A DNA stretch of 64,000 bases. It comes from Asterella californica. Taxonomy: Eukaryota; Streptophyta; Marchantiopsida; Marchantiales; Aytoniaceae. The stretch spans positions 7,130,001 to 7,194,000 of the forward strand of contig JAYKYS010000002.1 of assembly GCA_036924285.1 (NCBI GenBank), given 5' to 3'. Shown piece after piece: positions 8,797 to 52,335 of the stretch; positions within the stretch are counted from its first letter, which is position 1; each line of letters opens with the position of its first letter. The notes under the pieces are model-generated. The model did no database searches. It was not told the origin of the DNA and saw only the letters and a program-made list of their open reading frames with translations. The position numbers and the translations under genes were made by a program.

Positions 8797-9085
8797 TGTC
8801 ATGTCAGTTTGGGCACCTCGGCTAGGTTGACCGAGTGCGGAGTGACGAATCCCGGTAAGGTCGTTAGTGCCGTTAAGGCAAGTTGGTGAGAGAGCCCACT
8901 AGGGGTATACTTCGCAGGTAGGGCTTGGAGGCTTTAGTTCTTCAAGTTGAGCCTTCAAGCTCCGGGCTATGGTGGATAGTCTAGTTGAGTGTAACCCGGA
9001 TTCTCTTCGTGCTTAGAGTGGGTTTGGCTTGACCGTTTGTGAGTAATCTTTGTTATAGGGTTGGAGATGATAATTTCTCTGTTCA
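8797..9085 (+). repeat. 5' LTR, gypsy copy 1
   Basis: It starts TGTCATGTCA and ends TTCA (TG...CA). It matches 18130-18418 over its full length with scattered substitutions and the same 289-bp length. The match continues five bases further (GATTA). Related 292-bp repeats bound copy 2. Confidence 0.88.
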
Positions 9086-10719
9086 GATTACTTGAAAAAC
9101 TGAGTGCAGGTCGAGACGGAGTTCAGTAAAAGCTCGCTGATATGAAATCGTCCGGTGGTATCTTCGGGCGTTGTCGTTCGTGCTTGATTAATTAAACTTG
9201 CGATCGAGGTGTGTGTGGGCGCATGGTACCTTGCTGTTTGCAGCTTGATTGCTGTTGTGGGGTCGAGTGGAGATTTTCTGTCATGAGAAAGCGCTGCAGA
9301 AATTTTGCGGAATGTTCTTGATGTGATCTGTTCGGACCGGAGTGCGCGTTTGGGCATTACAGACGGAGTACTTGTCAATGTCAGCCCGGAGTGGGCTCTT
9401 TGGAAGCGCATTGAAGAGATGATTGTAGTGCATCAAGTTTCGTGGTGTTTGGTCGAGCATCGAAGAAGTTATGGCATGTCGAAGTTCACTGCCGTGTGAC
9501 CCGAAAGTGCAAGAAAGCTAGTTACGTCAGATTTTGGTGCAATTTCGTGTGAAAACTGGAGTTTAGGAGTTTTGTTTTGTGTGTGTGCATTCGCGAAGTG
9601 TGTATTGTGCATTCGTGAATCTGTTGTCGTGATGTTCGGGTTGGCTTTGGGTGTTCTTGCTGTTTTACATCAGATTTTGGTTATCCGTGTGCACCCGCAA
9701 GCTATTTTTGCTGTTTTGGAGCCTCTTTTGGTGCAATCTTGTGCAATTCGAGGTGGAGCCGAGTCTCTTTTGGTGTGTTGTATCCGTTCTACTCTACTCT
9801 AGGTTTCGAGGAGCAGAGATGCGTGAGAAGCGGAGTGCGAGAGTGCGGAGACGGAGCGAAGCCCGAGCCCGAGCCCGCCGCAAGCCAGCTTGCTGACGTG
9901 CGTGAGAGAGGTATGCAAGTTTCAGTTGTGTGAGAAGTGTAAAACCAGCTGGTCACCCATCCCAACACTGTTTCTGAACTTGGACACTTAACTGTAGTCT
10001 TAGCTTTGGCTTTACCACTAGACCAATAGCTCTTGGTGTCCTACAGAGATACGTGCAAGTACTTATGGACTTGTATAAGATAATAAGAGACCTTCTCGCA
10101 CGTTCCTAGAGCAGTGGTAGGGCGACTCCACAGTATTAGGAGGAAGCTATAGTTGTGGTAGTGTTTGCCTACACCGTAGAGACGCGCATGAGGGCAATTG
10201 GTGGCAGTTGTCTTGGGTGAGCTAGTAGAGCTATCACGTAGATATTTTTGGAGCTACTAGAGGTGTGGACATCTAGTTAGTGACCTTAAGTATCAGATAC
10301 GACGGTTGGTGACCATATATTGTGCATGTGGTCACCGAAGAGGAGACGTCAGTCCAGGTGGGGTTAGGTTTCTCTTTATGTGAATGTTTGAGTGTAGAGA
10401 GTTATCGTTTGGACTTCATGTGGTTGGAACCTCTCCATATTCTGCTTCCTGTTTGTGCGCCGCGTTTGCTTGTGTTGACGCTTGATTTTCGGAGTGAGTT
10501 CACTCCAGTGTGCTGTCGGTAGTGAGGCTGGAGTTGAAGATCAGTCAGACTAATTTTGTTTCTCTCACTGTGCGGTTGGAGTGACGACCAACAGATCGTG
10601 AGAGGCTGCATGTGGTGATGGCAGGTACATGTTGTCTTTACCTTGATCGTCCTAGTAAGAGATAGAGGAGCTTAGTAGGAGCGGGGTTCAGCAAGTGGTG
10701 GTTACGGTGGTGACGGGGA
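9086..10719 (+). other. untranslated leader of gypsy copy 1
   Basis: This is the 1.6-kb stretch between the 5' LTR and gag. It has no recognisable protein domain; short frames such as 9572-9933 are not supported. Its middle part is homologous to the leader of copy 2 (52336-53280). It contains an antisense 5S rRNA-like block at 9942-10048. No canonical PBS follows the LTR directly; the nearest TGGTATC string is about 70 bp inside. Confidence 0.65.
9942..10048 (-). ncRNA. antisense 5S rRNA-like / tRNA-like block in the leader
   Basis: Read on the minus strand, 9992-9951 begins GTTAAGTGT and ends GGGATGGGTGACC. This reproduces box A and box C of the 5S rRNA internal promoter with the same 42-nt span as in plant 5S rRNA. 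Upstream on that strand, around 10026, is GGTCTAGTGGTAAAGCC, which resembles a tRNA A box. The block is also in copy 2 (53082-53190), where the box C region reads GATGGGTGACCTCCTGG, even closer to 5S. It may be a SINE-like or 5S-derived module captured in the leader. A full 5S gene is not present, and whether it is transcribed is unknown. Confidence 0.65.
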
Positions 10720-12046
10720 TTGCGACATTCCGGTTGGGGAGTGTGTTATCAGGATTCTCTCATCACGGAGTTCTCGGGAGGTTCTGGTGGAGACTTCTCG
10801 GACAGTGGGCATACACGGAGTAGGATGACGTACCGACTACCTACATCCTTGTCGTCAGTTGTTCCAGAAGACGAGTCAGACGCAAACAACGCGTTTTCTG
10901 GTGGTGAGTCTAATGTCACCACATCGTTGTTGTGGGACATGGACGAGATCTATGAGACCACGAAGGGGTCTCGACATTACTCGGGTACAGTTGGTATCAT
11001 TGAGCTGGATGACTTCATCCAGGAGTTCGACAGTTGGTGCGATCTGCAGCAGATGCGGAACCCACAACTGTTTACACCCTTCATGGCGTGAAAAAGTTTG
11101 TTCTAACACTTGGAGGGACCGCCGATGGACGATTATCATGAGTTCAGGCAAGATTATAGTGTTGAGATTGAGTTGTGGAGACAACATTGGTCTCCCAACT
11201 ACGTTTTTTTCACTATTGGTGCAGTTTCGGGAGGCGTAGCACCTGTGAGTTCGGATACCAGTAGCAGTGATACATCCACAGGTGGCGGAGTACCTACTAC
11301 CAGCGGTGCGTCCACAAATAGTGGAGCAGGTGGTAGTGTGAGCGGGATACCACCAGGGTTTAACCCTGTGGTTCAGTTCTTCCAATGTTTGAAGAAGAAC
11401 TATCAAGGTGTGCGGACTGACAAGTTGAGGAGTTGACGGAAGCACGTGCAGTCCAGTTCGAGATACTAGACCGGGAGCTGCGTAAGAGAGTTAGAGATAC
11501 CGCTTCGTCGTTGGCGGTTGTCTTTGGTTTGGCTGAGCGGATTGAGCTCAACATGGTGGAGGAGAGGGTGATGGTTGCTAGGTTCAGCAAGGAGACAACA
11601 CAGGGAGCGACCACCTCTTCTCGAGGATCACAAGTTACGCGTGGTGGTGGTGGTGGTAAAGATCGTGCGGAGCAGTCACTATCTCAAGGAGGTGTTAGAG
11701 GATCTGGTGGGCAGAAGCCCATGCCGTCCTTCTTTAGTCAGCAGCAAGCGGGTCCTTGCTGGACGTGTGATGTCCTCATCAGCAAAATGACTGTCCACAG
11801 AGGAGAGGTGGTTATGAGACGTCAGGGACGTCTCAAGCAGTACCTAGGCAATGTGAGCATTGCGGACGACCTGGTCACAGTAGTGACCGTTGTTTTGATC
11901 TCCATCCCGAGTTGCGGCAAGGGAAGGCTGATCGTGGACGAGGCGGAGGAGCTCAGGGAGGCCGTGGTGGTCGAGCTGGGGGTTGAGGTTCAGCACCTGG
12001 GAGAGGACCGGTTGGTCCACCGTCTACTACGACGTCAGAAGCAGGT
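10720..12046 (+). pseudogene. gag: gag (capsid/nucleocapsid) of gypsy copy 1, broken
   Basis: One frame from 10720 to 11436 continues through two nonsense codons (TGA 11089, TAA 11104). It contains strings typical of plant gypsy gag, such as FDSWCDLQQMRNPQLFTPFM and EIELWRQHWSPNY. A frame change follows. At about 11847-11890, in another frame, there is a CCHC zinc knuckle (CEHCGRPGHSSDRC). This is the nucleocapsid motif that packages element RNA. Both stops are explained by single transitions (TGG to TGA, CAA to TAA). The true gag start is uncertain. Confidence 0.7.
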
Positions 12047-13251
12047 ATGGCTGCTCGGATTGAGCAGTTGGAGCAGAGGATAGCTAGTATGACTATGGCT
12101 CAGCGGAGATCAGGTGGAACAGAGGCTTCCACGTCTTATAGAGGAGAAGGAGATGACATCGACTTCATGGTTGACGTGGCGCATATTGAGGTATTTGCGG
12201 CAGTGACTAGAGGTGCAGTACGTGTCTCTGAGCCACGAGGTGCGTCAGTGGAGTTGGATTCACAACGCGGAGAGGCTGGTAGACAGACCAGGCTTCCCCA
12301 GTCGTTCACGTTATCGGAAGCATTGAGGACCACATCTATGGTTCCTAAACGGCCTATCGATGGTGTTGTAGAGTTGGAGGCATCGACATCTAGGAGTGGG
12401 TGTGATGTGAGTCCACCCTCGACGTCTGTGGATGCGACGTCGAACCCGATCTTGGGGACGGCTACAGCAGTTTTGCGAGCCCCACTATTTTCAGCCACGG
12501 ATATGAAAGCATTGGGAGTCAGCTTAGCTCTAGTGTTCCAGCTGGCGGTCACGTTCAGTGAGGGCGAGGATGTTGTTACCTCTAGTGCGGAGGTGGTTCA
12601 GCGAGAGGCGCTAGATGTGTCCATGAAGTCAAGGATCAGGATAGCTACCAGTGGTACTTGGCAAGCGGCGACTGCCAGGTTAAATGAGTTATCAACTAGG
12701 CCGGAGATTGACCGTGCTGGTTTGGCACCAGGTGTGGTGTTGTTGGACAACAGAAGTGATATCTTCTGTTTGGTGGCACCTTCAAGGAAGGTGTATCGAC
12801 CACAAATGATCTTGTTAGACTCTGGAGCCCAATCGTTGATGTTGGGAAAGACGGCGTGTATTGGTTTGGGTCTGAAGAAGTCTGAGGTAGAGAGATGTCC
12901 ATTCCAGTTACAGACATCTCTAAGGGGATCAAGAGGTACTCTACACATGACACGCGAGATGTTGACGGTGAAAGTTTGACTAGATCATCTCACGGATGGT
13001 TTCATGGTGAGGGCCAAGGCCATTGTTATAGCCGTAGAGTCTTATGATGTATTAGTTGGAGGTGTTGCGTTATACCCTACGGGGTTCGTGATCGACTATT
13101 GGAGAGAAGCAGCATCTTACAGACCAGGTTGGCAGTCCGGTGAAAGACGAATGAGTCGCTTATCAGTGCTAGAGTTGAGACGACGTAGCCTACACCAGGG
13201 ACGATGGCATCCGTTGCAGGGTTCAGTTCGGTCATCACTTGATCGGGCGAG
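12047..13251 (+). pseudogene. pro: retroviral-type aspartic protease of gypsy copy 1
   Basis: The frame 12047-12979 ends with the protease active-site motif ILLDSGAQSLMLG (about 12810-12845), the Asp-Ser-Gly of pepsin-fold retroelement proteases. In the family this enzyme cleaves the Gag-Pol polyprotein. A stop at 12977 and a frame change interrupt it. The following piece (13004 onward, with YDVLVGGVALYPTGFV) looks like the C-terminal part of the protease. The N-terminal 200 codons are Ser/Thr-rich linker without a recognisable domain. Confidence 0.75.
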
Positions 13252-14602
13252 TTGTTGGAGGACAATGCCCATGCGGAGAATACTCTGGTCTTTGAGGAGG
13301 TGGAGGACATGCCTAGCAAGTCTATGTTAGTACCATCTGCCTTGGATGTTCCACTCTGGAGTTCGAGTGGAGAGTTGCAACAATATGCTGATCAGTTGGT
13401 GCAGCAGGCTTGGAGTGAAGCCTTTCTACCACCAGTAGAGGAACAAAGGGTTGTTCTTGCTACTGGCCATGTGACCTTATCACCGTTGAATACGACTCTC
13501 ATTGTGTGGTAGTATCCAGAGGAGGGTGTATGTGTGCTGGAGCTGTTTGGAGAGATCAGCACAGGTTTGGCTGCGGTATTGCAAGCAGGCATACAAGTAC
13601 ATCGATACTTGTATGTGAAGAGAGATGAGATTGCGAGACGCATCTCATTGCGACATGTGGCACGTTTGGTGCAGAGATATCCTGAGTTGTTGTCCATATT
13701 AGCTGTTAGAGGATACCAGCAAGCATTACCGTCAGATATTTCGCTGCTGGGGGCGCATGATCTTACGTTTGCTGGCATCATTCACTTGATGATAGCCGGA
13801 TGGTCATGTCAAGGTCACACGCATGCTGGGAGAGGTCAGGGTTTACATGACCCGCGATCTAGGATGTTCTGAGAGATGTTACGGATCTTTACGACATCTC
13901 CAGATGCATCAGGTGGATTCTCCAGCGTACATCTTGGAGAACGTTCCTTTGTTGGGTGATGCTCGTACACAGATGAAGGCGAGTATCCACCAAGTGCGGT
14001 CTTGGGTTGGACCAACAATGTTGTTGGATGTAGCGAGAGTAGGATCTCGTGCACATCGTCTACGGTTGTGGTGGACGAACTTGTTATCGAGAGAGGTGCT
14101 TAAGCGCGCACACGGTGGAGTGAGACGACCAACGCATCTCACGATTGATAGCATCTTGGATGCAAGACGACGATCTCAAGTAGTGAGAGTCGTCGATAGG
14201 TCATCCATGGCAGTGGTGAACCTAGTGGGACGGCCCATGGTAGCGTTACACACTTTGGTAAGCTTTTCAGCGTCACATGCTTACAGAGATGGAGGACCTG
14301 GGCTTGTGTGGGATGCTCAATTACGGCAGTTGGTGGAGCTCAATGCCAATGAGAGAGAGCGAACGATGAGTTTCGCTACGGATACGATGGCAGTAGCTTC
14401 GATGTCGGAGGCTTCACATCGTCAAGTATTGGGTCAAGCAATGGACTTGAATTGCTTGACATGGATTGTTAACCTTAGATTGGCTGAGCAGCGTAGGATG
14501 CGATCGATGGGTGTTACTGCTCGGACACTTCTGAGCTCTTTATCTATCGAGTCGGTGGAGGCAAAGACTGGGAACGAGGCGTGTGGAGTTCGTCATCCTT
14601 AG
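13252..14602 (+). pseudogene. DNA (cytosine-5) methyltransferase domain inside gypsy pol, broken
   Basis: Conserved C5-methyltransferase motifs appear in canonical order. Motif I (SAM binding) is LELFGEISTGLAAVLQAG (from 13534). The catalytic loop, motif IV, is GWSCQG followed by AGRGQGLHDPRS (Cys codon 13807-13809). Motif VI is ILENVP (ENV at 13937-13945). Motif VIII-like is SRAHRLRLWW (14045-14071). A motif IX/X-like tail is LGQAMDLNCLTW (about 14428-14463). The canonical order excludes the rearranged DRM type; the motif I style and short target-recognition region suggest a DNMT3-like enzyme, but subfamily is unproven. It would methylate cytosine in DNA using S-adenosylmethionine. Damage: TAG 13510, TGA 13870 (TGG in both copy-2 domains) and a one-base insertion near 13890. 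The Pro before the catalytic Cys is Ser in all three domain copies in this window. Confidence 0.85.
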
Positions 14603-16200
14603 ACATCATGAGATGTCTTATGAGAGAGTGTGGAGCTTGCAGCTAGAACTGCAGAAGTTTTACGCACAGTAGCGGTGGAGGTTGTTGGTGGTGAGCAGAA
14701 GGAAACTGCTCCAGAGGCTGCAAGATAGCAGTCAACGACTTCGTCTTCTATCTCTAGCATGGTGACAAAGGATACTTGGGAGCCGGAGATTGGACCCAAG
14801 CTTATAGGAGAGGAGAGACGAAGAGTTCAAAGATTCTTGAAGAGCTACAGGAATTGTTTTGCCTTCAGTATGAAGGATTTGGGTATCTTGAAGGGACCTG
14901 GTATACGGATCGACTTGGCTATTGACACGTCAATCTTTTGACGTCCTTACAGATATAGTGACATGGAGAGAGCCTTGATCCAGAGTAGGACTCAAGACTT
15001 GTTGGAGGTTGGGTTGGTGGAGATGTCGCATGGAGAGTATCATCTGTCACACTTATGCCAGCCAAGAAAGATATATATGACAACTACACGGATAGACGGA
15101 TGTGTGGGGACTACCATCTTATCAATCGACAAATGAAATCTGATAAGTATGCCATGCCGACACCTGAGGAGATCTTTGATGCAGTGGGGCATGTGAAGGT
15201 CTTCAGTACTTTGGATCTTCGAGCAGGGTACCATCAGTTGCCAGTGAAAGAAGAAGATAAGTCCAAGATAGCATTCTGAGGAATTGACTCTCACGGCAAG
15301 GATTGTTTGTATCAGTGGCGGTTCTTATCATTTGGGTTGAAGAACGTCTCTGCTGAGTTCCAGAGGGTGATGGACAGGATCCTAGCTAGATTGGATTTTG
15401 TCAGATGTTATATTGACGACATCTTAGTTTATAGTGCTACTGTGGAGGAGCACGAGAGACACTTACGAGATGTGTTCGACCAGTTGAGAGCTCATCTTTT
15501 GAAGTTACACCCTGAGAAGTGTAAGTTCTTAGGAGTTGGTAGAATATCTGGGCCACACCATCTATCCAGGTGGATTGGGTGTTCAGCAGATGAAAGTTGA
15601 GGCTATTGCACGTATCCCACGCCTCACAGATGTGAGTCGAGTTCGAGCATATGTTGGTTTGACGAACTTTTATCGTCGATACGTGAAGGGATTTAGTGCA
15701 ATTGCGAAGCCGTTGACCAAGCTGATGAAGGTGGACCATGAGTGGCAGTGTGAAGATGAGCAGGAGCGAGCTTTCGTAGAGCTCAAGGATAGGTTGACAT
15801 CTGCTCCCATCTTGAGGAGACCCGTTAGGAGACGTCCTTTCCAACTGCACACCAATTGGAGTATGTTGGGACTTGGAGCAGTGCTGACTCAACATGATGA
15901 TGAGAAAAAAGAGTTCGTGATGGCGTATGTCAGTCGCTCCAACAATTCAGCGGAGGTGAGGTATAGCTCGTATGAGAGAGTGTTTGATGACAGTGTGGGC
16001 TGTTGCACACTTTTGATGTTATCTGTTTGAGAACCCCTTTATTCTCATCACTGGTCATCAGCCGCTCAAGTGGTTGATGGGGTCGGACAAGCTTACAGGG
16101 AAGCTTGCACGATGGGCTCTGATCTTACAGGAGTATGACTTCCAGGTAGTACATAGACCTGGAGTTGCAAACCTAGATGCCGGTGGGTTGAGTCGTAACC
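14603..16200 (+). pseudogene. pol: reverse transcriptase and RNase H of gypsy copy 1
   Basis: The N-terminal RT portion (14759-15000, CFAFSMKDLG) is followed by FSTLDLRAGYHQLP (15208-15249) and the polymerase active site YIDDILVYS (Asp-Asp codons 15415-15420), then EHERHLRDVF and YLGHTI. RNase H follows (15840-16180: LGLGAVLTQHDDEKKEFV, LARWALILQEYDF). The first RNase H acidic residue, normally Asp in T-D-W-S, reads Asn here. Stops at 14939 and 15277 and frame changes near 15290, 15540 and 16030 make it inactive. The order RT, RNase H, integrase is that of Ty3/gypsy. Confidence 0.88.
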
Positions 16201-17700
16201 CATGCACGAGTCAGCAAGATCAGACTGGGACTCGATGACATGACGAGGTTGATGAGGAGATAGTGCCAAGATGGCATGCATCTGCCTTTCTTTGTGTGTT
16301 GGTCATGAACTCTAGTATGGAAAGCCAAGTTGTATCTTTCTTTGGTCAGAGAGTAGATGATGAGTCTCCAGATCTTGAGAGTGGAGATGGTGTATCAGAC
16401 CAGCGAGATATCCATGACGATGTAACTGTAATGGAGAATCTACGTACTGGCATGGTGGTAGGCACAGTAAGTGCCAAGGAGCGAGATCGTGTCTTTCAAC
16501 GAGCGAAGAGATTTTGACGAGAAGGACGACATGTACTTCGAGTGTGAGGTGATGGGAGAGTACTGATAGTATCACATCCAGCTCAGAGGGCACAGTTAGT
16601 ACGACATGCCCATGAGGAGTTGAGACATTTTGGAATGAAGCGTACGCATACCTTACTCCAAGGACAGTATTGGTGGCGTGGTATGCACGTCGATGTGCAG
16701 CAGTTTGTCGCATGATGTGTGGTTTGTGATCGAGTACGAGCATCGTTTAATGCTCCTACTCCACAGTTACACCTCTTACCGATTATGGGGTTGGGTTATC
16801 GTTGGAGTTTGGATTTTGTGGGACCCTTACCGTTGACCGTACGTCATCACCGGTATGTGTTGGTGATGGTGGAGCACTTCTCCAAGTGGATTGAGTTTGT
16901 GACATTACCGGACAAGGTGAGTGAAGGGGCTGCGTATGCGTTCTTAGATCGAGTGCTGAGTCGTTTTGGAGCACCAGCTGAAGTGCTGACATACCAAGGT
17001 ACAAAGCTCCTTGGTGAGTTTCAGGCCTTGTGTGATCAGGCGCTAATTGATCATCGGACTACATCTTGAGATCATCCTGAGGCGGATGGTTTGACGGAGA
17101 GGGTAGTTCAGACGGTGAAGAGAGGATTGCGCAAGTATGGCTTGCAGAAAGACCACTTGGGAGACTGGGATGTGCAGTTACCATGGTTGGCTATGGGTTA
17201 CCGTTTCAGCCGATCAAGCGTCTTTGGCTTCCTTCTCACCGTATTTCTTATTGTATGACCGAGATCCAGATCTACCTTCGGTCATTCGTCGTGATTCTGC
17301 TGAGCTGTTGAACCTTGATGACCCGGATATGTGGGTGACCGCATGTTCTCAACGAGCAAAGACATTTCGGAGAGTTATGCCTATGGCTTTTGAGAACCTA
17401 GCAATTGCTCAGCATAGAGACACGTTGCGATATGCGACTATTCGAGGAGGAGGTTACCGATCATCGATTCACAGGTTTCATCTTGGCGATTATATCTATC
17501 TACAGCAGACTGCACCGACGATGTTAGACGTGACCGCAAGGCGCACTATTTACAAGTGCGTGAGGTGTTACCTTCTGGAGTACTCATGTTAGAGGGCCAT
17601 GATGGTGTTGTTTGGAGAATCATGTGCGTAATTGCGCGTCATGTCATTTTCCCAACATCGATGGTACCGTTGATTCAAGCTTAGCAGTTATACGGGCAGG
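16201..17700 (+). pseudogene. int: integrase of gypsy copy 1
   Basis: The zinc-binding head (HAHEELRHFGMKRTH near 16599, then C-V-V-C with TGA 16713 just before) is followed by the catalytic core. The first Asp is in SLDFVGPLPL (about 16810). The second Asp position reads LTYQGT (16987-17004), where copy 2 has LTDQGI, so the catalytic Asp is lost here. The glutamate region (EADGLTERVVQT, 17083-17118) is retained after TGA 17067. A C-terminal basic/beta region (HRFHLGDYIYLQQ, 17471-17509) resembles the end of gypsy integrases. A frameshift near 17550 precedes the PHD finger. Confidence 0.85.
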
Positions 17701-17848
17701 CTTGAGGTGTATGTTATGTGGGTCTGCTGGTGGAGCAGCCCATATGTTGATGTGTGATGGTTGTTCTAGAGGTTGATACATGTCATGTTTGACTCCATCT
17801 CTCAGTGTCGTTCCTACTGGACGGTGGGTTTGTCCTCGATGTATATAG
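17701..17848 (+). pseudogene. PHD zinc finger at the C-terminus of gypsy pol
   Basis: The frame reads CMLCGSAGG, then MLMCDGCSRG, then a TGA codon (17774), then YMSCLTP, PTGRWVCPRCI and a terminal TAG (17846-17848). This is the C4-H-C3 PHD pattern: Cys pairs at 17708/17717 and 17753/17762, the C5 position at 17786, and the last pair at 17831/17840. The single His position reads Tyr here (TAC) but is His in copy 2 (HMSC), where the domain recurs at 57453-57602. PHD fingers usually bind histone H3 tails, modified or not. In gypsy elements this position is often held by a chromodomain that steers integration; a similar steering role is inference. Confidence 0.85.
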
Positions 17849-18010
17849 CGGAGATAGTCGATTAGATCTTTACGTGGTATGGATTACAGACATGCGACTA
17901 ACGATAGGACGATGTAGCACCCGGCCTCCTGATCCTTGCACCATGAAGGTGTATATCACGTAGTTGGGATATGGAGTTATCTGGAGTTAGAGGGACCTAA
18001 CTGTCAATTA

Positions 18011-18129
18011 GGGGGGGCGATTGTGGTACATTTGTGTGTGTATATGACATCGCCCATGTGTTATGTGTATGTGTAGTGTACCTCTGACAGCGATGTATGT
18101 TGTGTAGTGATGTGTATGCGCACGACAGA
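18011..18129 (+). repeat. polypurine run and 110-bp segment A before the 3' LTR
   Basis: A G-rich run (18011-18017) is followed by segment A, starting TTGTGGTACATTTG at 18021 and ending GCACGACAGA. A near copy (A') starts immediately after the 3' LTR at 18424. In a standard element the polypurine tract abuts the 3' LTR, so segment A could be the U3 part of a longer LTR. Confidence 0.7.
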
Positions 18130-18418
18130 TGTCATGTCAATTTGGGCATCCCGGCTAGGTTGACCAAGTGCGGAGTGACGAATCTCGGTAAGGCCGTTAG
18201 TGCCGTTAGGGCGAGTTGGTGAGAGAGTCCACTAGGGGTATACTTCGCAGGTAGGGCTTGGAGGCCTTAGTTCTTCAAGTTGAGCCTTCAAGCTCCTGGC
18301 TATGGTGGATAGTCTAGTTGAGTGTAACCCGGATTCTCTTCGTGCTTAGAGTGGGTTTGGCTTGACCGTTTGTGAGTAATCTTTGTTGTAGGGTTGGAGA
18401 TGGTAATTTCTCTGTTCA
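18130..18418 (+). repeat. 3' LTR, gypsy copy 1
   Basis: Full-length match to 8797-9085 with scattered substitutions. It is followed after five bases by segment A' (18424-18521), a copy of the sequence lying in front of the LTR. Confidence 0.88.
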
Positions 18419-18793
18419 GATTATTGTGATACATTTGTGTGTGTATGACATCGTCCATGTGTTATGTGTATGTGTAGTGTACCTCTGACAACATGTGTAG
18501 CGATGTGCATGTGCACGACACTGTTGCTTGTTCTCTTGCATTTTGTTGGAGTGAGCGTTATGTAATTTTTCACGTATAGACACAGTGACTTGATGTAATC
18601 TATCACTCAACGCCTTAGTCAACGGGTCTCTCATTCTGCTATTGTCGCTCCGTTCTTTCTCTTGCTTGCTTTGTTCTTGAAAGCGGTCGGTTCAACGGAC
18701 CTATCCTTGTCTCTGCCGCTGTTCATAACATCGATTTCAACCAGAGAACCTTTTCCGTGGTTGATGAACTAGTCCCTATGATGTTAAGAGGAG

Positions 18794-19198: not shown

Positions 19199-20540
19199 GT
19201 GATCGACTCCGACGCCACCAGTCACATGACTCTTTATCGGGAGTGGTTTAGTTCACTCGAGCATGTGGAGACTCCACAATTTACGGTGACAGGAGATGAC
19301 ACCAAGCACAAGATCCAGCACAAAGATAACATTCCACTTGACATTCCTGCTTCAATGTTTACTGGTATACGAGATGTCTTACATGTACCCATGTTGACTA
19401 GAAACCTACTATCTGTAGGACAGTTCATAGAGCAGGATCTGCAAGTGCGCTTCAATAAAAATGGATGCTTTATTGAAGATTCGAATAGCACTGTCATAGC
19501 TCAAGGTAGCAAGAGTGGTAGGCTGTTTAAACTAGATGCCTCTGCGCTTAAGTTACAAGCTGTCATATATGGACAGAGTCGTCCAATAGTGTCTGATATT
19601 GCCATCTGGCACAACCGAATTGGACACATGAACTTTCAGAGGCTGAAAAGTCTTCCGAGTTCTGACTTGGTTACAAGTCTGTCCAATGAGCCCACTGGAG
19701 TCTGTGCAGCATGCCAGTTCGGCAAGCAAGCTAGACAACCCTTTAAGGGATCAAGTAGTAGAGCGAACAAGCTTCTGGAGCTTGTTCATAATGATGTATG
19801 TATTGCTTCTCAGTCAAATATGACCGGTTTTTAGTACTTCGTGTCGTTCATTGATGATTATTCGTGTTATACTTTGATCTATTTGTTGAGAAACAAGTCC
19901 TCTGCAGAAGTACTGTCAACATTCCGGACTTTCTACAAGTTGGTGGAGAAATAGTCTGGAGCTTCTATCCTCTGTTTGAGATCTGATGGAAGAGGCGAGT
20001 TTCTTTCTGGAGAGTTCGATGCATATCTGCGTGAACATGACATTCGACGCTAGAAGACCTACATTTACAGTCCGTAGCAGAACGGGGTTGCGGAGCGCAA
20101 GAATCGACACATAGCAGAAGCTGCTCGTGCTATGTTGAAAGAGAAGATCATGCCTAGACCTTACTGAGCAGAAGCTGTTTCATGTGCGGTGTATATGATG
20201 AACCGGACGTCTATAGCGGCAGTCCACAGCCAGACACCGATGGATGTCTTCACAAGCAGTAAGCATGATTACTCTTTCCTTAAAGTTTTCAGATGTATCT
20301 GTTATGTGCACATACTTGATGAAAGACGTAAGAAACTAGATCTGAGAGCAGATAGATGTATTTTCCTTGCTTATGCTTCTGATACGAAAGGATATAGATG
20401 TTACAATCCTTTCTCCAAGCTTAGTAGAGATGTTGTTTTTGATGAGCTAGTCTTGGTTTGCACCTGCACCTGTCGTATCCATCCCTGTACCTACAGTAGA
20501 ATCAAAGAGTCAGTCCACTGTAATACCTCAGAGTAGTACG
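19199..20540 (+). pseudogene. int: copia protease and integrase
   Basis: The protease motif, normally D-S-G-A-T-S-H-M, reads VIDSDATSHMT at the start of this frame (Gly to Asp by one G-to-A change). The GAG-pre-integrase motif IWHNRIGHMNFQRL follows (about 19605), then the integrase core with FIDDYSCYT, LRSDGRGEF and QNGVAERKN (about 19850-20110). The conserved fold continues through VFRCICYVH to 20460. Stops at 19832, 19952, 20053, 20077 and 20164 are explained by CAG/TGG to TAG/TGA-type changes or similar. This copy is inactive. Confidence 0.85.
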
Positions 20541-22180
20541 TTGAGTGGAGGAACTGGAGAAGTCACACTTCCATATCAGAATCAGTTGCACATAGAGTTG
20601 TTGTTAACATTGGAGTCTACATAACACAGCCTAGTGGAACTAGTGTAGTTTCTACACAGGATGAGCGCGTTGTCGTGATGTGATCATCTCACATAGTAAA
20701 TAATTCACTTCTCTGTCATGAGTTAGTCTCATCGCGCTGAACACTGTTGTCTACGTTACTTGGCGATTATCTGTTGCACTTCAACTCCGACGCTTGAGTC
20801 TAGTAGTTCTAGAAGTTAGCTCAATATTATTTCTAGTCTTTTATGCATATGTTTGACACCTTTGCATATGGTGTTAACACTATTATGTTATATATTTTGA
20901 GTCCTAGTAGGTTGATAGTATGTTATTATTCTTGTTCAAGCATTCATACGCGTGTGCAAGTGACTTCATACTTATCTATGATGTTCAAAGTACATAACTT
21001 AGGTCTATCATGTTGATAGAGTTTAAGCTCGTGGGTTGTACTTACATGTCGCCCATGCATGCTTTCTAGCTTGTTTAAGTTATCTTTCAGGATTACGTGT
21101 CATTTTACATGTCTTCTCAAGAAATTTAAAGTTTACCCTAGCACTTTAGAGACTTGACGTGGTAACCTATGTGTGAAATTAAGTTACCACGTGGATTGGG
21201 GCACAAAAGGATAGGGAAGTGGAGCTATGAACTCCACATTTTTGTCCTTTGTGAAATTCTAAACTTAGAAGCATGGATCTTAAGGAGATTTCAAGCTTTT
21301 GCTAGAGACATTGAGATTTCTGAGAACACATGGTGATAGAGCTCGTCGTGCGAGTCAATGTCAGTGAAAGTTTTGATCGATTTGGAGCAATAAAGAAAGA
21401 TTTATGCCGATTTGAAGTTCTGATTGGACCAAAATTGCATTACAATTGGTGATTTTGGGATTTTTGGTGTCAGTTGCAGCAGAACTGAGATAATTGCTTC
21501 AAACCTTCGTGGTTGCGTTCACTGTCAACAAGGCTACCACTGTCCAAAAGGTTTCATGTCATTTGAGTGAGTGAGTAATTCAGAGTGATAGCTGAAGTAG
21601 AGGGGTCTGAAAAGCTCTCAATCTAGAGCAGCAACTTCAGAGCTCGGGATCTGGAGAACCGTGTACAACCAGCAAGTCAGATTTCACAGGGATGTTCAGC
21701 GTGCTGTAGACTCCAAATCTTGTAAGAATCATCGAAAGCCAATTCTTTGTTCTAGGTCAAAATAGCTATCTGGGTACGAGAAATTGTCATAATTTTTTTA
21801 CTCAGAACGTTTTTGCCCCATATCTCAGTGCTCAGATTTGATCTCAGGCTGAAAGTTCGTATGTGTCCTCAGTAGGGCCTCATTTACATGTAGGAGAAGT
21901 TTTTGAAGTCTAAAGCATCACATGTTTTCCATTCTTGAGTGTTAAAGTTCACCATCAGATCTTATTATTGCTAGTTAGTCCTGATATCCTCTTTCTGAAC
22001 ATATCGGAGAACCCAACAGACCTGTGTGAGTGTTTATAGTGCCACCTTATAACATGAAGCCCGCCTCTTACGTAAGCAACCACAGCCCGAAGCCCAACGC
22101 TTTCCTAAGTAGACATATCACAATATTCACGATCGTATCACAACTCGAAGGTTCCGCCTTTCCCAGGAAACTCTCACCAC
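20541..22180 (+). other. non-coding interval inside the copia element, possible nested insertion
   Basis: Copia integrase homology ends near 20530, and RT-proximal coding sequence resumes near 22187. The intervening 1.6 kb is AT-rich with dense stops and no domain. It contains a 10-bp-arm inverted repeat (21157-21166 with 21183-21192). It could be a solo LTR or other insertion, but I could not identify ends or a target duplication. Confidence 0.45.
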
Positions 22181-22186
22181 GACAGC

Positions 22187-23930
22187 GTGTTATTGCAGCG
22201 TATGTTTGACTCGTCAAGATATGTGGATCTTCCACATCCATTGGATATGTTGTCTCAGACCTTGGCGTCTACGTCAGAGCAGATGCAAAGGGAGGTGACT
22301 AATGCACGGATTACCTCTCGTAGATCTAAACGGGCAAAAAATCCAATGAATAGGTATATGCATGAAAGTTTTCTTGCTGCGCACCATGCATATATGGCCA
22401 ATGTTCTTCAAGAACAAGAATCAAGTTCACTTGAGGAGGCGAGCACAAAGCCCAATGGATAAGTGCTATGGAAGCTGAACTTGTTGCGCTTCATCATCAA
22501 TAGACTTGGGAGTTGGTGGACTTACCTGAAGATAAGAAAGTGATTGGTTGCAGGTGGGTCTTCAAGATCAAGCGCAACTCGGATGATACCGTGTGTCGGT
22601 ACAAGATCAAATTGGTAGTTAAGGGTTACGCACAGCAACATGGAGTGAATTTTGAGAAGACCTTTGCTCCAGTTGCGAAGATGGTGACTATTCGAACCGC
22701 AGTTGCAATTGCAACTCAAAAAGGTTGGAAGATGCACCAGATGGATTTCAAGAACGCCTTCCTCAACGACGATCTTGAGGAGGAGGTCTACATGCAGCAA
22801 CCTCCAAGTTATGAGGATCCTAAGTTCTCTTCTGGTGTGTGTAAGTTACAGAAGGTCCTCTATGATCTGAAACAAGCACCAAGAGCATGGTATGCAAAGA
22901 TCAATTCTTACTTGCAGTCTCTTGGTTTCCTCCTTTGTAGTTCAGACTCCACCTTGTATTAATTAAGAATACGAGACCGGATTGTTGTAATCATCATCTA
23001 TGTTGATGACTTGATCATTATCGATAACTATGAGGAGTTTATTTCTCAGATCAAGGATCACTTGAAATCTGAGTTCGAGATGATGGACTTAGGAGAACTC
23101 AAGTACTTCCTTGTTGTGGAGTTCATTAGAGATGAGAAGGATGTTTGGCTTGTACAGTGATAGTATGCTCTCAGTATGCTTGAGAGATTTTGTATGCTTG
23201 ACTGCAAACCCATTGCTATGTCACTAGAGCAAGGAGTAAAGCTAAGAGTAGAGGATGTTGAGTTACTTGATGATCCACACATGTACAGACATATGGTTGG
23301 GAGTCTTATCTACCTGACGATCACCAGACCAGACTTGAGGTATGTCGTCGGTCTGATTAGTCAGTTCATGTAGTCATCACGAAGATCACATTTGGAGACT
23401 GTCAAGCGGATCCTCCGCTACGTGAAGTTCTCGATGCAGTACGAACTTCACTATCGATACGATGGACCATTGTTGTTACATGACTACACAGATGCTGATT
23501 GGACAGGAAGTGCCGACAGCAAATCCACGTCAAGTTACGCTTTTGGACTTGGAAGCACTGCTATAAGCTGGGCTTCTAAGAAGCAACTTACGGTTGCTTT
23601 GTCATCCACAGAAGCAGAGTACCGAGGAGCACCGAACGCAACATGTGAATCAATTTGGCTTCGATGTCTGTTATTTGATATTGGTGTGGAGTGTACATAT
23701 CCGTGTTGTTGTATATACAGACAACATTAGCAGCATGAAGTTAGTTAGTAATCATGTTTTCCATGCTAGGACGAAGCACATTGAGGTGCACTATCATTTC
23801 ATTAGAGAGAAGGTCCTTGCAAGAGAGATTGAGCTCAATTATGTGAACACAGGAGATCAGGAGATCAGGAGATCAGGAGATCAGGAGATCAGGTTGCCGA
23901 TATCTTCACTAAGGCATTGTCTAGATAAGT
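22187..23930 (+). pseudogene. pol: copia reverse transcriptase and RNase H
   Basis: RT signatures are GCRWVFKIKRNSDDTV, YAQQHGVNFEKTFAPVAKM, MDFKNAFLNDDLEEEVYMQQ and LYDLKQAPRAWY (22545-22890). The active site is YVDDLI (Asp-Asp codons 23005-23010). RNase H signatures are DADWTGSADSKSTSSYAF and LSSTEAEYRG (about 23490-23630). The C-terminal VADIFTKAL typical of copia (23893 onward) is out of frame because an 8-bp motif, GAGATCAG, is present five times (23853-23892). Stops occur at 22961 and 23157, among others. Confidence 0.88.
23853..23892 (+). repeat. 8-bp microsatellite (GAGATCAG) x5
   Basis: Five perfect head-to-tail copies of GAGATCAG lie inside the copia pol tail. A single copy is expected from the family (coding G-D-Q before V-A-D-I-F). 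Four extra units add 32 bases and shift the frame. Confidence 0.9.
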
Positions 23931-23988: not shown

Positions 23989-24069
23989 TGTTGATATAGC
24001 CCCAAGCTCTAGTAGATCATCGGCTAACTTTAGCCGGAGCGGACCATAATGGAGTATCTATGTATTGAC
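23989..24069 (+). repeat. partial copia 3' LTR
   Basis: TGTTGATATAG follows a polypurine run, as expected for a copia LTR start. The similarity to any LTR cannot be extended, because at about 24070 the sequence changes to gypsy-family DNA. Confidence 0.45.
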
Positions 24070-24259
24070 GTGGTGGTAGGCACAATAAGTGTCAAGGAGC
24101 GAGATCGTGTCTTTCAACGAGCGTCCTTTTGACAAGAAGGACGACATGTACTTCAAGTGTGGGATGATGAGAGAGTACGGATAGTGTCACATCCATCGTA
24201 GAGGGCATAGTTAGTACGACATGCCCATGAGGAGTTGCGACATTTTGGAGTGAAGCGTT
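24070..24259 (+). mobile_element. gypsy-family fragment (integrase head region)
   Basis: The segment from TGGTGGTAGGCAC to TGAAGCGT is homologous to 16450-16640 of gypsy copy 1, covering the end of RNase H to the zinc-binding head of integrase. The sequence then diverges abruptly. It is a 190-bp piece joined directly to a broken copia LTR. Confidence 0.85.
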
Positions 24260-28623: not shown

Positions 28624-29928
28624 AAATATCACGGCAATAACTGGAAATGGGACTTTGGCTGTACTTCTTTAGTATTTACTTCATTTTAACATTCTCCAAT
28701 ATGTGTTTTTACTTGGACAGACAGTGGTGTATGGGGATAAGATCTATGGTTTATCGGATATAAGTTACTCAAAAATACAAGAGAAGAATAGCAGAAATGG
28801 TTTTTGTCCTATTTTCTAGGGAGTTACACGTCAGACGATTGCTAAATCGAGTTTGATCCTTAATGGACATCACGCTCTAAAACATTTTGAAAGTTTTGTA
28901 TAATTGATTCGATATTTTGTCCTTGTGCAATGGTCTTACTCCGGCCTCATCCGGTTGCGTCATCTCACCCCTTTCACCATTTGCACATGTGGCCTAGGAG
29001 TAATCAGTACCTTCCATGCTTTTGAATCTATAAAGACTGAATTCTGTCTAGCGCGTACATTGTATAAGCATTTGCAAACATTATTCATGATCAGCAATTT
29101 ATGAAAAATTTTCCTCTCGCTCTATGTTCAAAGTGCTGTCTCACAGGCATTGCCTCGCAATTGCGCAGCACCTTGTTTTCCTCCATTCTTTCCGGCTGAA
29201 TGTTACACATTCTTCTTTCCATTCACCAACGCCAGTTATTAATCGCTACATTCATGTGCTGACTCGTCTGGTTCACCATCTGTAACCAGTCACTGGAGCA
29301 GACGAACATTATCGGGCATGCTGACGGGATAGTCTAACCGTCGAATTCTCTGATTCTACACATGATTCAATGTAACACAAAGAGCTATTTACGGGCACGC
29401 AACTGCCAACTCCTACAGAGTAACATTACACTCTCCTTAAAATTGGAAGATAGATTTTACTGCTTCTTTCACATTAACTTTGAGCTGTCAGGTCCATTTA
29501 ACAGTGTAATACATCATAGCCTTCCCGTGCGAATATGAACACAACAGAACAACAAACATGTGTTACTTTATTCTCACTAGTCAGTCTTGTCCCAAACATT
29601 AGTATACTTCGGAGGCCCTTCACTTGGCAGGACATAATTCCAATGGACTACTGATTATAAGTACAGTTCCAAGGACGCAAACAGTTTCATCCGCTCGCCT
29701 TCTGTCCCGTAGTTCAACAGTATCCTGCCTCAAAAGTTTCATTCCTATGGTGCTAGAAATGAATGTCCTCTTTATGTACAGCTCAACTGACCAGAATGAT
29801 ACATTGCCTAAAGGAAAAGTGTTTCACTACTAATATAGGATGAGGTGCAACTATAGTAGGAACTTGGAACCCCACTCCCACAAAACTATGGATGGTAAAT
29901 TTACAATCAAGCCTTCAACAGTTACCGT
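28624..29928. other. downstream flank of the Fd-GOGAT gene
   Basis: This stretch probably contains the 3' untranslated region of the minus-strand Fd-GOGAT gene near 29600-29928. No other coding sequence or RNA gene is recognised. Confidence 0.5.
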
Positions 29929-32900
29929 TTAAACGTTTTGGACGACAGGTTCACTGATAGGAACATTGTCTTGAACCTCCGGACCTGCCTCTGGTGTATC
30001 TTCCTCGCTAGGTGGTACTAGTTGCCAGAACATGGGAAGATACTTCTCCCAATTTTCCAGCACTTGCTGTCCTCTAGTACTTCCCGTCTTGTCCTGTCAA
30101 ACAACTCCCACACAGATTGATTATCGGCTGCATGTACCAAGTATGCAGCTGTCGGGCGCGACATGCTAATCAATTCCCGCTTTTGAGACTACTGAAGTCG
30201 TTGCTCAAGCTGGTTTCATCTTTGTTGTAGTCTCTCTGGAACGGGATTTGCTAGTCACTACATAACGTCTTTCAGACTCCAAAGTGCTCGATCTAATTAT
30301 CTCGACTGACGTATACCGCACCGTGATAGACATAACCATTAGCTATGACGCATACGTGGAAAATGCTAGGCGCCCACAGTAAGAACGAATATTCTCTTTC
30401 TTACCACATGAGACTGAATCAGCCGGCGTAGAAGTTGCTGTCCCGCAGGAGTCCTGACTCGTTGCATTTTCACAATCTCCTTGTTTACCTTTTCATACAA
30501 ACGACAAAACCATGTCAACGGTTACCCTACAGTGAGTGACTGACAGATTGTTCTATGCTTAACGGATACTGGAGCACGCGATTAAACAAAGAGAACATAA
30601 TTCCTAATGCAGAATACGAGAATCACATAGCCAAAGATCTAGACTTCCAACACTCCTCCGTGTCTTCCACAAGAACGTCTGTGATTACTTGCTAAAAGTT
30701 CACCATCGCTAACTTGTAATATCTTTTGCTGTTTTCTCGAGGGAAAGATATGACACAAACCTTGGTGGTGAACGTATCATCCTCATCCAGAAAATAGGCT
30801 AAACCCCCTGTCATTCCTGCACCTACATTTCTTCCCACTCTGCCAGCCAATCACAACAACCGTGTTACTCGATACCGTGTTCATAGTGCATCGTATGTGC
30901 ACGCATTTTTACCACACCTCGCGACTTGCAAGGGCAGTGCTAGAAGTTAGAGGGTAGAGATTGAGCAATCAATAATCTGGGAAGGACTACTCCAGGCAGT
31001 ATCAGGACAGTCCTACACCAGCCGTAACCTATCTTAGCGAGAAAGAAGCAGAGCAAGAAAGTGACTGAACTTATCATAGTGTACTGTGCCCGACCCTTCC
31101 GGTACTCTAACACGACGAATTCTCGACAGGTGGGCTAGGACAGCATGGGTTAAGAACGGAAGGCGACGAATTTACCACCTGAGAAGGGGAAAGAGAGACT
31201 CCAGTTGTTTCATGATTCGGTAAGACGACCAGTTAAGTGAGGATGAGCAAAAGGGTACCGGCCTTGGGCAGAGGACCAAGCAAAGCAAGAACATCACAAC
31301 AAGGAGAGACAGATAGAGAAGCAAAAGGACGAGATCGCAACTGTCACCAGCTTCGTAGCACGCTCCTACGATGGACCTCAGAAGGCACTTACTTGCCCAG
31401 AGATACAACACATCCGCCCGTCATGTATTCACAGCAATGGTCGCCACAACCTTCTATCACTGCTTCCGCTGAGGAGTTTCGAACGGCAAATCTTTCGCCT
31501 GCTTTGCCTCGGGCAAAGAACTGCCCGCCTGTGGCGCCGTACAAACAGGTGTTTCCAACAATGGTAGCATCCTCCGGTGCGAACTTCACATGGCTTTGAG
31601 GTACAATAACGATCTCACCCCCAGCAATTCCCTGCGATTTTATCATTTCAGCCCCTTGAATCGTCACATGAACACAGGTAGGGTACGACAAGCTGTGAAA
31701 CAAAATTTATGGGCTACAACCCCTACCTTTCCCACGTAGTCATTAGCCTCCCCGATGAGGCGGATATTCATTCCTCGAGTCAGAAAACATCCGAAGGACT
31801 GACCAGCACTGCCCTCAAACCTGCAGACCAACCAAGACAAGAAGACCACAGAGGCACTTTATTTCAGGGCATGTAAAAGTAACGTGCTATGCAGAAAGCG
31901 CAAATCATTCCACCAGTGGCGGTAACCAAGGAACAGATAAAAGAGAAACCGTAGCATGGACTACGCGGTCGCAAAGTTCATACCCTCCCCACGAAACATG
32001 GCAGGTGCTAGGCCGTACATTCTGCCTAGACCACCTCACCTCATACGCTCCCAGAGTTACATACAGGTAGATGCTTGAAATTACCCCATCAGCTCATCAG
32101 ACAGAAGACTGAGGAGATATTACCAGAGTACGTTATTTTAGTAATTTTAATCACTCAAAGGGGATGTCCTCAATTCGAGTTCGACTCACGTTATGTCAAG
32201 ACGTCCCGCAAAGCCGTCGCCGTGCTGCTTGGCAATTCGACCCGCTATCCGCCCACCGACAGACCGATCAACGTTGAAAATCTTCGCCTTTTTCTGCACA
32301 TCCTTTTCTTCTTTGATAGCCTCCTCGATCTGCCAACACCACAGGTTTAAAGATTAAAGAGACAAGAAGGCTTGCGCTCAGCAGAAGTCAAGTTCAAAAA
32401 TGCAGCTCGATATACGTTATGTCACGGCCTTGAAAAATCCACTGTTTCATGTCCTTCCAATCAGCACGGCGCAACACCTCCCAACCAGACATCCGCGACA
32501 ATACCAATTCCGACACTGACTTTTCAGAAAGCAGATCTGAGGAGACTCTTTCCAATCTGGCAGTCACTGGAAAGCACTGATACCAAGATGTTCGCGATTA
32601 AAACCGCAACATGCGAAACATTGAGGTTGGCATAGGAATACTGTAGGGATATCTACTTGTGCAAATCAGTACTCCCGAATATCACCTCAGGATCCGCCAG
32701 AAGAACGTCATCCAAGACGGGACCGTTTGAATGCACGGGCTGCTTTCTGATCTCAGTACTACTTATCTTCGGAAGCCCTGCATTCTGTGCAAAGGCAACG
32801 ACTCTATCAGAAGGCGAATCTTCCTGCGAACCTTCCTCGAGATCTAACACCACAGATGCGTTTAGAACCCGGGATTCCGGACATGCACGGTAGAACGACC

Positions 32901-44900: not shown

Positions 44901-45768
44901 CAGTGGTCGAACAGCTCCCATGGGATTCGTGTCATAACTCCAGCACCGTCCCCCGAATCATTGTCTGCTCCACAACCTCCTCGGTGTTCCATACAACTGA
45001 GAGCAGATAAAGCATCTTGAACGACTTCAAAAGATGCCTTATTCTTCAAGCTCGCAATAAAACCAACTCCGCAAGCGTCTCGTTCTGCTAAGATATCTTC
45101 CATGTTAACGACCTGCTTGTCATCATCAGAAATTTGCAATGAGTGTAATGGATCTAATTCGACGAGCTCTCAAACTTCATCGTCTGTACATAGCTCAAAA
45201 TGAAGAGAGGTGGCCAACCCAGTGCGTGGTCACAGCTAGTCTAGAAGAATTTTGTCTTCATAAGAAAACGGCTGGTGATGCATTCACCACATCCACTATT
45301 CGTCACATTCACTCAACAAATCAGGACAAGCTCTGCCTATCCATGAAAGTTTATTGCGTTGAAAGGACCGATGCTACAGCCTGAGCGTAGTTTCCGAATT
45401 TAGCATTCCCCAAACTGAAGGACAAATGGTACCTCGTACGTCCTTCCCGTCGAGGCAGGAGTCCCGACTCCGTTAACCAGCGCTGCACATACGTGCTTCC
45501 AGCTTCTGGAATGTCCAACATTCTTTCTATAGCTCGAACTTTCTTGCACGTTTCGAGACCTTTTGAGCTTAGATGCTCCATGAAGGCCATCAAATGCAGG
45601 AATTGTCGACCTATCTTTCAATTGGAAACCATAAGCGAAGTTGGCAGCAGGGCACACGAATGGGATCGAAGCAACAGGTGAGCAGGAAAAAGAAGGAGAC
45701 TGATAGAAACACGAATTCGCCGAAGATCTTCCTTGAAATGGTAATGTAATATAGCTGGCTAACGCCAT
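29929..45768 (-). CDS. GLU1: ferredoxin-dependent glutamate synthase, plastid precursor (Fd-GOGAT), 33 exons
   Basis: Fd-GOGAT converts glutamine plus 2-oxoglutarate to two glutamates using reduced ferredoxin in plastids. I assembled 33 phase-consistent exons giving 1642 residues: 45768-45433, 45112-44800, 41814-41372, 41038-40907, 40756-40658, 40316-40246, 39966-39870, 39556-39464, 39349-39204, 39005-38846, 38646-38536, 38436-38221, 38009-37852, 37542-37413, 37071-37013, 36849-36744, 36375-36279, 36068-35953, 35274-35077, 34875-34765, 34645-34406, 34242-34144, 33992-33897, 33781-33584, 33431-33357, 33134-33006, 32784-32686, 32329-32190, 31820-31727, 31631-31393, 30839-30761, 30488-30405, 30093-29929. 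A Ser-rich transit peptide precedes Cys126 (codon 45073-45071, DACGVGF), the amidotransferase nucleophile. Other landmarks are [25 protein letters not shown], the FMN-synthase domain with 3Fe-4S cysteines 1257, 1263 and 1268 (CHTNNCPVG), and a GXGXG domain ([10 protein letters not shown]). No NAD(P)H-binding beta part follows, so it is the ferredoxin type. The exon 1-2 boundary is the least certain; all other exons match the family strongly. Confidence 0.95.
35450..35815. repeat. repeats and two hairpins within Fd-GOGAT intron 18
   Basis: A block with CAGGAGCATAATA, CGAGAA, CTCAGT, AAACTAATGAGGAGCATAA occurs at about 35527-35585 and 35718-35775. Between and after the copies are two perfect hairpins: 35664-35675 with 35678-35689 (TTTCGTCCAATG), and 35784-35795 with 35801-35812 (CATTAAGATGAT). 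Confidence 0.85.
37692..37717. repeat. perfect hairpin, 10-bp arms, Fd-GOGAT intron 13
   Basis: ACACTTCTTC (37692-37701) pairs exactly with GAAGAAGTGT (37708-37717), with six bases between. It lies in the intron between exons 13 and 14. Confidence 0.9.
41815..44799 (-). other. 3-kb second intron of Fd-GOGAT
   Basis: This is by far the longest intron of the gene; the others are about 80-680 bp. It has a GT donor at 44799 and an AG acceptor at 41816-41815. The split codon (G plus CG) restores Ala and the reading frame. It contains no recognisable coding domain but has internal direct repeats: GATACCATAAGA(A)TCTATAT at 42939 and 43074, and ATTCGTCCGGGAG or AATCGTCCGGGAG at 42421 and 43377. An old non-coding insertion may account for its size. 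Confidence 0.7.
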
Positions 45769-52043: not shown

Positions 52044-52335
52044 TGTCACTTCAGTTTAGCACCTCGGCTAGGTTGGTCAAGTGCGGAATGATTAATCTCG
52101 GTAGGGCAGTTAATGTCGTTAGGGCGAGTTATTGGGATAGCCCACTAGGGGTATATTTCGTAGATAGGACTTGGAGCTCTTAGTTCTTCGAGTTGAGTCT
52201 TCAAGCTCCTTGTTATGATAGATAGTCTTGGTGAGTGTAATCTGGATTCTCTACGAGCACAGAATGGATTTGGCTTGACTTTAGTGGTTGTTTAGTGTCG
52301 GTTGACATGATGGAGTGAGTACATATCCCTTATCA
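52044..52335 (+). repeat. 5' LTR, gypsy copy 2
   Basis: TG...CA repeat of 292 bp, matching 57886-58177 and, more distantly, the 289-bp LTRs of copy 1. The copies share CCACTAGGGGTATA and CAAGCTCC. Confidence 0.88.

Follow-up and report, generated by a model that had tools for sequence, protein, structure and literature searches.

A DNMT3-like methyltransferase ahead of an in-frame UAG in a high-copy Ty3/gypsy family of Asterella californica

The genome of Asterella californica contains a high-copy Ty3/gypsy retrotransposon family, with some young copies, that carries a DNMT3-like C5-cytosine methyltransferase (DNMT) between its protease (PR) and its reverse transcriptase (RT). Two copies lie in the window analyzed here, a stretch of 64,000 nucleotides (contig JAYKYS010000002.1 of assembly GCA_036924285.1, positions 7,130,001 to 7,194,000 of the forward strand; all coordinates below are window positions). 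The first, E1 (8797-18520), is a decayed, dead copy. The second, E2 (52044-58284), is also dead and contains the DNMT domain twice. All features of E1 and E2 are on the plus strand. In 16/16 copies with a long frame elsewhere in the genome, the DNMT forms the end of a Gag-PR-DNMT frame, which a single UAG parts from a frame for RT, RNaseH (RH), integrase (IN) and a PHD finger.

Identity of the methyltransferase domain

The first-pass annotation of the window had placed a C5-methyltransferase between the LDSGAQ protease site and the RT of E1, with motifs I, IV, VI, VIII and X in order, and had named a profile search as the check. Both the placement and the order were borne out, the domain by matches to the PF00145 profile and to DNMT3A in PDB, and the motifs as a series spread over two frames. 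The names follow the usual scheme for C5-methyltransferases: I, IV (PC), VI (ENV), VIII and X. In E1, motifs I-IV are found in a single frame (13513-13869) and motifs VI-X in another (13895-14494), past one stop and one frameshift that interrupt the domain (13513-14494). The surrounding open reading frame (ORF) 1 remnant with Gag, PR and DNMT (10750-14725) is frameshifted as well and aligns in five pieces of 80-86% identity to ORF1 of the genome copy L044 (tblastn); its protease site, at about 12815-12832, was read by eye. Motifs are in canonical order in an alignment of nine genome copies and the two window pieces (LELFGGISTG, GWPCQG, LENVP, HRPRLWWTN and RRQVLGQAMD), with motif IV reading GWSCQG in E1 (S for P) versus GWPCQG in the nine genome copies.

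Searched singly against Pfam, the two broken DNMT pieces of E1 gave no match, which reflects decay and not absence; the assignment for E1 therefore depends on both pieces combined. When X was placed at the breaks, the domain matched PF00145 with an E-value of 5.9e-5 and 23.1 bits, barely above the curated cut-off of 22 bits, and DNMT3A in PDB with an E-value of 1e-5. Two uninterrupted copies of the same genome reached 35.2 and 36.5 bits. The PDB ranking for one uninterrupted copy was DNMT3A (1.5e-11), DNMT3B (2.6e-8), HaeIII (5e-4), DRM2 (0.0033) and a tRNA C38 methyltransferase (0.004), the top chains for the element enzyme being DNMT3A and DNMT3B/3C. Given the matches of the uninterrupted copies, a chance origin of the predicted domain is ruled out.

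Genome copies and organization of the reading frames

A search of the whole assembly (516.7 Mb, 773 contigs) with PF00145 returned 123 scored matches from 1250 candidates. They comprise four host genes, one short match left unassigned (53 codons) and about 118 likely element copies, a number to be taken as a lower bound, which contradicts the idea, raised with the first-pass annotation, that the domain had been captured in one copy only. All matches with an open frame of at least 1366 codons were fetched and examined in full, giving 16 copies in a sampling that favours young ones. ORF1 closes at TAG followed by CAGTCA in all 16, and the frame downstream is unchanged. The same in-frame UAG and CAGTCA (CAR-YYA) mark the boundary in E1 (UAG at 14726-14728). 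The DNMT belongs to the Gag-PR side of this UAG and not to the RT frame. Both frames are open in 10/16 copies, in which ORF2 has 1038-1041 codons.

Pfam was run on both ORFs of L044 and on ORF1 of L034. DNA_methylase was the only family found in ORF1 of L044 (residues 1047-1118), while its ORF2 contains RVT_1, RNaseH, H2C2, rve and a PHD finger (6.7e-11). A Gag knuckle CEHCGRPGHSSDRC (CCHC) and the LDSGAQ site were recognized in ORF1, both by eye. The order is thus the PR-RT-RH-IN of Ty3/gypsy elements with an rve integrase, PR again being placed by eye. The ORF2 remnant of E1 (14729-17836) follows the same organization, with RT, RNaseH, rve integrase and, at its end, a PHD-finger remnant that starts at about 17708 when mapped onto L044.

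The sequence around the stop is widespread. An exact 23-mer spanning it occurs 763 times in the genome (362+401), and the reversed control does not occur. On one contig (C1), compared by hand, the exact 23-mer was found within about 1.1 kb downstream of 19/28 non-host PF00145 matches, the other nine being without it. A UAG followed by CAR YYA is described as the readthrough signal of plant viruses of the tobacco mosaic virus (TMV) type (PMC2754532), and the element stop has exactly this form.

A relative in an environmental contig

When bacterial genome contigs were scanned with one element DNMT, 68 pattern matches were obtained, of which one was confirmed (L063); the viral contigs scanned gave three pattern matches and no confirmed one. 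The L063 DNMT is 50% identical over residues 2-327 and matches PF00145 with an E-value of 3.4e-12 (46.9 bits). It originates from a metagenome-assembled genome labelled as a cyanobacterium (CADCWO010000201.1; bin G001, 4.8 Mb). The bin contains 16 RVT_1 matches, which we read as eukaryotic contamination; it probably holds mis-binned eukaryotic DNA with a gypsy-type retrotransposon (also L067 and L068). The contig has identical 127-nt ends. An interpretation as a real circle was rejected, since assemblers collapse repeats into identical ends.

The organization of L063 mirrors that of the Asterella family: a protease-like match (Asp_protease_2, below the cut-off with 20.9 of 24.3 bits), the DNMT, TAG CAATCA, and a 1047-codon frame that opens with RT and closes with a PHD-like cysteine pattern recognized by eye. 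UAG-CAR-YYA is common to both although the sequences around the stop differ. Amino acid identity between the two families is 0.28 for Gag, 0.34 for PR, 0.50 for DNMT, 0.70 for RT-RH, 0.72 for IN and 0.61 for PHD.

Selection and decay

Ratios of nonsynonymous to synonymous substitution rates (dN/dS) were pooled from pairwise comparisons with L044, a star of related copies that counts shared branches repeatedly. For 15 copies, the ratio was 0.174 for the DNMT, 0.24 for Gag, 0.19 for the Gag-to-PR stretch and 0.36 for the PR stretch. With ORF2 usable in 10 copies (five with a broken ORF2 were omitted), it was 0.08 for RT-RH, 0.11 for IN and 0.11 for PHD. The diverged copies L031 and L036 gave DNMT values of 0.13 and 0.20. 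Judged by these ratios, the DNMT is under purifying selection.

The C-to-T rates of E1 and E2 relative to L044 were 0.105 and 0.242 at CHG, 0.077 and 0.159 at CG, and 0.082 and 0.135 at CHH sites, rough values since L044 is not the ancestor of either copy. Such rates do not show the mark that a CG-methylating element might be expected to leave. The observed/expected ratio of CpG, 0.75 in L044, 0.78 in E1, 0.85 in E2 and 0.82 in the remaining window, gave no signal of depletion.

Split repeats and a self-complementary primer

Two full terminal long terminal repeats (LTRs), as typical of Ty3/gypsy elements, were not found; the repeats are split instead. The order A-coding-B-A-B is present in 12/16 fetched copies (L034-L038 and L040-L046), with the four repeat parts seen within one stretch in six copies and via added right ends in the other six, and also in E1 and E2. 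L031-L033 show part of the repeat set only. L039, with both frames open, has A-coding-B without the A2-B2 right end and is flanked by an exact CCTC duplication. The termini are TGTC and GACA (GATA in L037 and E2). In E1, A1 forms the left end and begins with TGTC (8797-9090; 96% identical to 18130-18423 over 294 nt, and 91% to A of L044), and B1 (18021-18129), A2 (18130-18423) and B2 (18424-18520), which closes with GACA, follow the coding part. The corresponding repeats of E2 are A1 (52044-52335), B1 (57776-57885), A2 (57886-58177) and B2 (58178-58284).

Both flanks were read for 13 insertions. A 4-bp target duplication is exact in 10 of them (L035, L037-L041, L043-L045 and E2), and three of the four letters match in L034, L046 and E1. 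The E1 flanks are CTGC and CTGT, and E2 has CACA directly before A1 (52040-52043) and after B2 (58285-58288).

In 15/15 copies in which A and the primer-binding site (PBS) were read, A is followed by 11 nt (CTCAAAGAACT) whose reverse complement, AGTTCTTTGAG, is found inside A. A match of this kind arose in 2/20000 simple shuffles of A. A blind scan of L044 for complementary pairs of at least 9 nt returned, besides the 12-nt primer pair, just one of 9 nt. In the L063 contig, where the end of A is not independently placed, the scan gave one pair only, 13 nt long and different in sequence; the pair partners follow the palindrome described below by 185 and 361 nt there, and by 139 and 293 nt in L044. 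The E1 PBS CTTGAAAAACT (9091-9101) pairs, except for one base, with AGTTCTTCAAG inside A1; relative to the uninterrupted copies, both are changed at the same two paired positions. The E2 pair also has one mismatch. The PBS of Tf1 is complementary to the first 11 bases of its RNA (PMC7175516), and the present element seems to self-prime in the same way, with the start of the RNA placed by inference.

The polypurine tract (PPT; 18011-18020 in E1) lies immediately 5' of B1, and the PBS adjoins A1. By ordinary logic, a PPT at B1 and a PBS at A1 make B+A the LTR, so that A2/B2 becomes the joint of an LTR end to an LTR start. A palindrome GACAGCTGTC is located inside each B+A unit at the boundary of B and A. 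This boundary, between B1 and A2, reads GACAGC/TGTC in 6/6 copies read there, GACAGA/TGTC in E1 and GACAAC/TGTC in E2, and ACGACAGCTGTCACG is present in the L063 contig too. The A2/B2 joints vary: of 12, eight are plain, two have one extra A and two contain fillers (12 nt in L036; 23 nt in L044), while E1 and E2 have plain joints. The L044 filler (right end L054) is composed of a repeated short unit. It is absent from the near-identical L043, which has a plain joint and differs from L044 by one synonymous change over the compared ORF1 regions. The joint therefore appears to be newly made.

The variation at A2/B2 would fit a ligation of LTR ends ahead of integration, and the L039 form would result if a one-LTR circle were opened at the B/A boundary. 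We tentatively propose, as a reading with somewhat less than an even chance, that this DDE-integrase element integrates from LTR-LTR-joined, circular DNA, which would be opened at GACAGCTGTC with the A2/B2 joint kept in the provirus. The circular, chromatin-like intermediate might then be methylated before insertion by the element's own DNMT, with an excess of Gag-PR-DNMT supplied through a leaky UAG. Foamy virus integrase is described to cut 2-LTR junction palindromes in vitro (PMC1180852). Against the circular route speaks that the mirror form A-B-A-coding-B was absent from E1, E2 and 12/12 fetched left ends with at least 38 nt of flank. Some mirror copies would be expected under a symmetric 2-LTR-circle model, so either the opening is one-sided or the model is wrong.

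The second element and other features of the window

The two further copies of the domain that had been reported at 53-55 kb are indeed found in E2, at 53636-54327 and 54556-55225. They form a direct tandem duplication (84-91% identity by piece, about 920 bp apart) within an ORF1 remnant that covers the PR side and the DNMT (53369-55790). The ORF2 remnant (55833-57600) lacks a part corresponding to approximately residues 268-667 in L044.

A fragment resembling ORF2 of the DNMT-bearing gypsy family is found at 24043-24258. Past E1 lies a Copia-type element (19199-22959) with Pol_BBD and gag_pre-integrs (19199-19831) and RVT_2 (22504-22959). The region of about 29900-45800 on the minus strand contains a multi-exon glutamate synthase gene, recognized by its reading frames, with GATase_2 in the frame 41366-41839 (1.1e-59). 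PX and Rubicon-homology domains mark a host frame at 62397-63524, which is preceded by an open frame (60462-62090) for which a Pfam search gave no match.

Proposed explanation and alternatives

We consider it probable, with some reserve, that a DNMT3-type enzyme is carried in the Gag-side polyprotein of this high-copy Ty3/gypsy family, ahead of a leaky UAG, and is packaged to methylate the element's cDNA. Most ribosomes would halt at the UAG and produce Gag-PR-DNMT in excess, while a few would read through to yield Pol. The methyltransferase would thus enter particles at Gag stoichiometry, where it could methylate the cDNA before or at integration; recognition of a histone mark at the target is a possible role of the PHD finger. 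The enzyme would most likely serve to methylate the arriving DNA in the way expected for host chromatin, or to dampen new insertions to a level that the host tolerates.

Several observations weigh against this explanation. Pfam detected neither a Gag nor a PR family in ORF1 of L044 and L034, and the NCBIfam dcm model scored 36.4 bits, far under its cut-off of 100.65. A stop of this type need not be read through: in Tca2, local sequences around the gag/pol stop are described as insufficient (PMC2194720), and splicing could bypass the UAG. The case for selection is reduced by the choice of the 16 copies for their long frames, by the repeated counting of shared branches and by a DNMT dN/dS of 1.09 in L046. 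C-to-T decay peaks at CHG and not at CG, a pattern that host silencing could yield. For the Klebsormidium relative expressed in yeast, no activity was detected, a result called inconclusive by de Mendoza et al. (PMC5890265).

The strongest alternative, which comes close to an even chance, is that the elements are members or vertically related kin of KnitGypsy-Dnmt3, the family already published, in another streptophyte, with nothing structurally new. Superfamily, DNMT3-type domain, purifying selection and A-coding-B-A-B repeats agree with the published description (PMC5890265), and our relatives from two separate sources form a single DNMT clade (100/100) in a tree of 14 rows (among them the two element families, host DNMT3, DNMT3A, DRM, five phage enzymes and Dcm). 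The placement argues against it: the KnitGypsy DNMT is described as part of the Pol ORF (PMC5890265), whereas in our copies it closes the Gag-PR frame, upstream of the UAG. In addition, a search of the main text of that paper gave no occurrence of the words PHD, readthrough and gag.

An origin of the enzyme from a phage or bacterium instead of a eukaryotic DNMT3 is unlikely. It would account for the good phage matches (649 records at E-values up to 1; lowest E-value 3e-15 among the matches listed, for a 329-aa coliphage enzyme; phrog_116 at 3.6e-19) and for the long element branch in the tree (2.25). The same tree joins the elements to host DNMT3, DNMT3A and DRM against the five phage enzymes and Dcm, though with unstarred support of 81/88, and a grouping of host DNMT3 and the elements as a clade could not be rejected (p-AU 0.556). 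A eukaryotic DNMT3 is thus the likelier source on this analysis. The four host PF00145 genes of Asterella are three DRM-like genes with permuted motifs (L047, L048, L049) and one DNMT3-like gene (L050). A DUF3444 match lies downstream of L050 on the same strand, and we infer that both form one gene; non-flowering streptophytes are reported to have a DNMT3 with DUF3444 at its C-terminus (PMC6453930). The assembly also has full-length PsaA/PsaB matches.

Methylation of RNA (genomic RNA or tRNA) rather than DNA is more doubtful still. The enzyme would work inside an RNA-filled particle, and tRNA (cytosine38-C5)-methyltransferase chains are in the PDB list. DNMT3A and DNMT3B match far better, by the E-values given above, and an element that apparently primes itself would need no tRNA primer. 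A recent passenger domain without function, suggested by the broken window copies and the duplicated, decayed domain of E2, is very improbable in view of the low DNMT dN/dS, which also disfavours simple decay, the motifs conserved in copies and the retention of this placement by a relative whose DNMT is 50% identical.

Retrotransposons rank among the main targets of DNA methylation. For a family that encodes such an enzyme, maintains it under apparent selection and includes many young copies, what the element gains from the enzyme can be asked directly. The leaky stop would predict the amount of enzyme per particle, and the variable A2/B2 joint makes the feeding of integration by joined-LTR circles testable in a eukaryotic element.

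Comparison with known systems

The retrotransposon DNMT precedent in charophyte algae that the first-pass annotation had named is real. KnitGypsy-Dnmt3 of Klebsormidium nitens is described as a gypsy element with a DNMT3 and A-coding-B-A-B repeats (de Mendoza et al., 2018; PMC5890265). Judged by titles, and with preprints and most subscription papers outside the scope, no other report of a gypsy element with a DNMT was found; PMC6338049 and PMC12344493 refer back to this paper. For split direct repeats together with gypsy and integrase, five papers came up, three of which, by their titles, deal with tyrosine-recombinase or DIRS elements. The Asterella family has in common with KnitGypsy-Dnmt3 the gypsy domains, the DNMT3-type enzyme, the DIRS-like repeat order, purifying selection and the presence of several copies. 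Going by the published description, it differs in having the DNMT at the end of the Gag-PR frame, in 16/16 copies and L063. Relative to KnitGypsy-Dnmt3, the land-plant host, the placement ahead of a putatively leaky stop, the putative self-primer, the PHD finger and the joint evidence are added here.

SymbioDIRS-Dnmt3 likewise combines a DNMT3 in the polyprotein with A-coding-B-A-B split repeats, but is described with a tyrosine recombinase (PMC5890265), whereas the present family has an rve (DDE) integrase and 4-bp target duplications. The UAG with CAR YYA is shared with the TMV-type leaky stop (PMC2754532) and, unlike in TMV, separates Gag-PR-DNMT from RT in a retrotransposon. A palindrome of joined ends is shared with foamy virus as described in PMC1180852, where it lies at the LTR-LTR joint, versus within the B+A unit here.

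Beyond these systems, the primer invites a comparison with Tf1. Tf1 has ordinary LTRs and is not known to carry a DNMT. Self-priming over 11 bases, described for the Tf1/sushi group (PMC7175516), is what the family appears to share with it, the 11 bases lying here in A, where the RNA would start. Overall, the Asterella family is, as far as its sequence tells, a known kind of element in which the layout is distinct and conserved.
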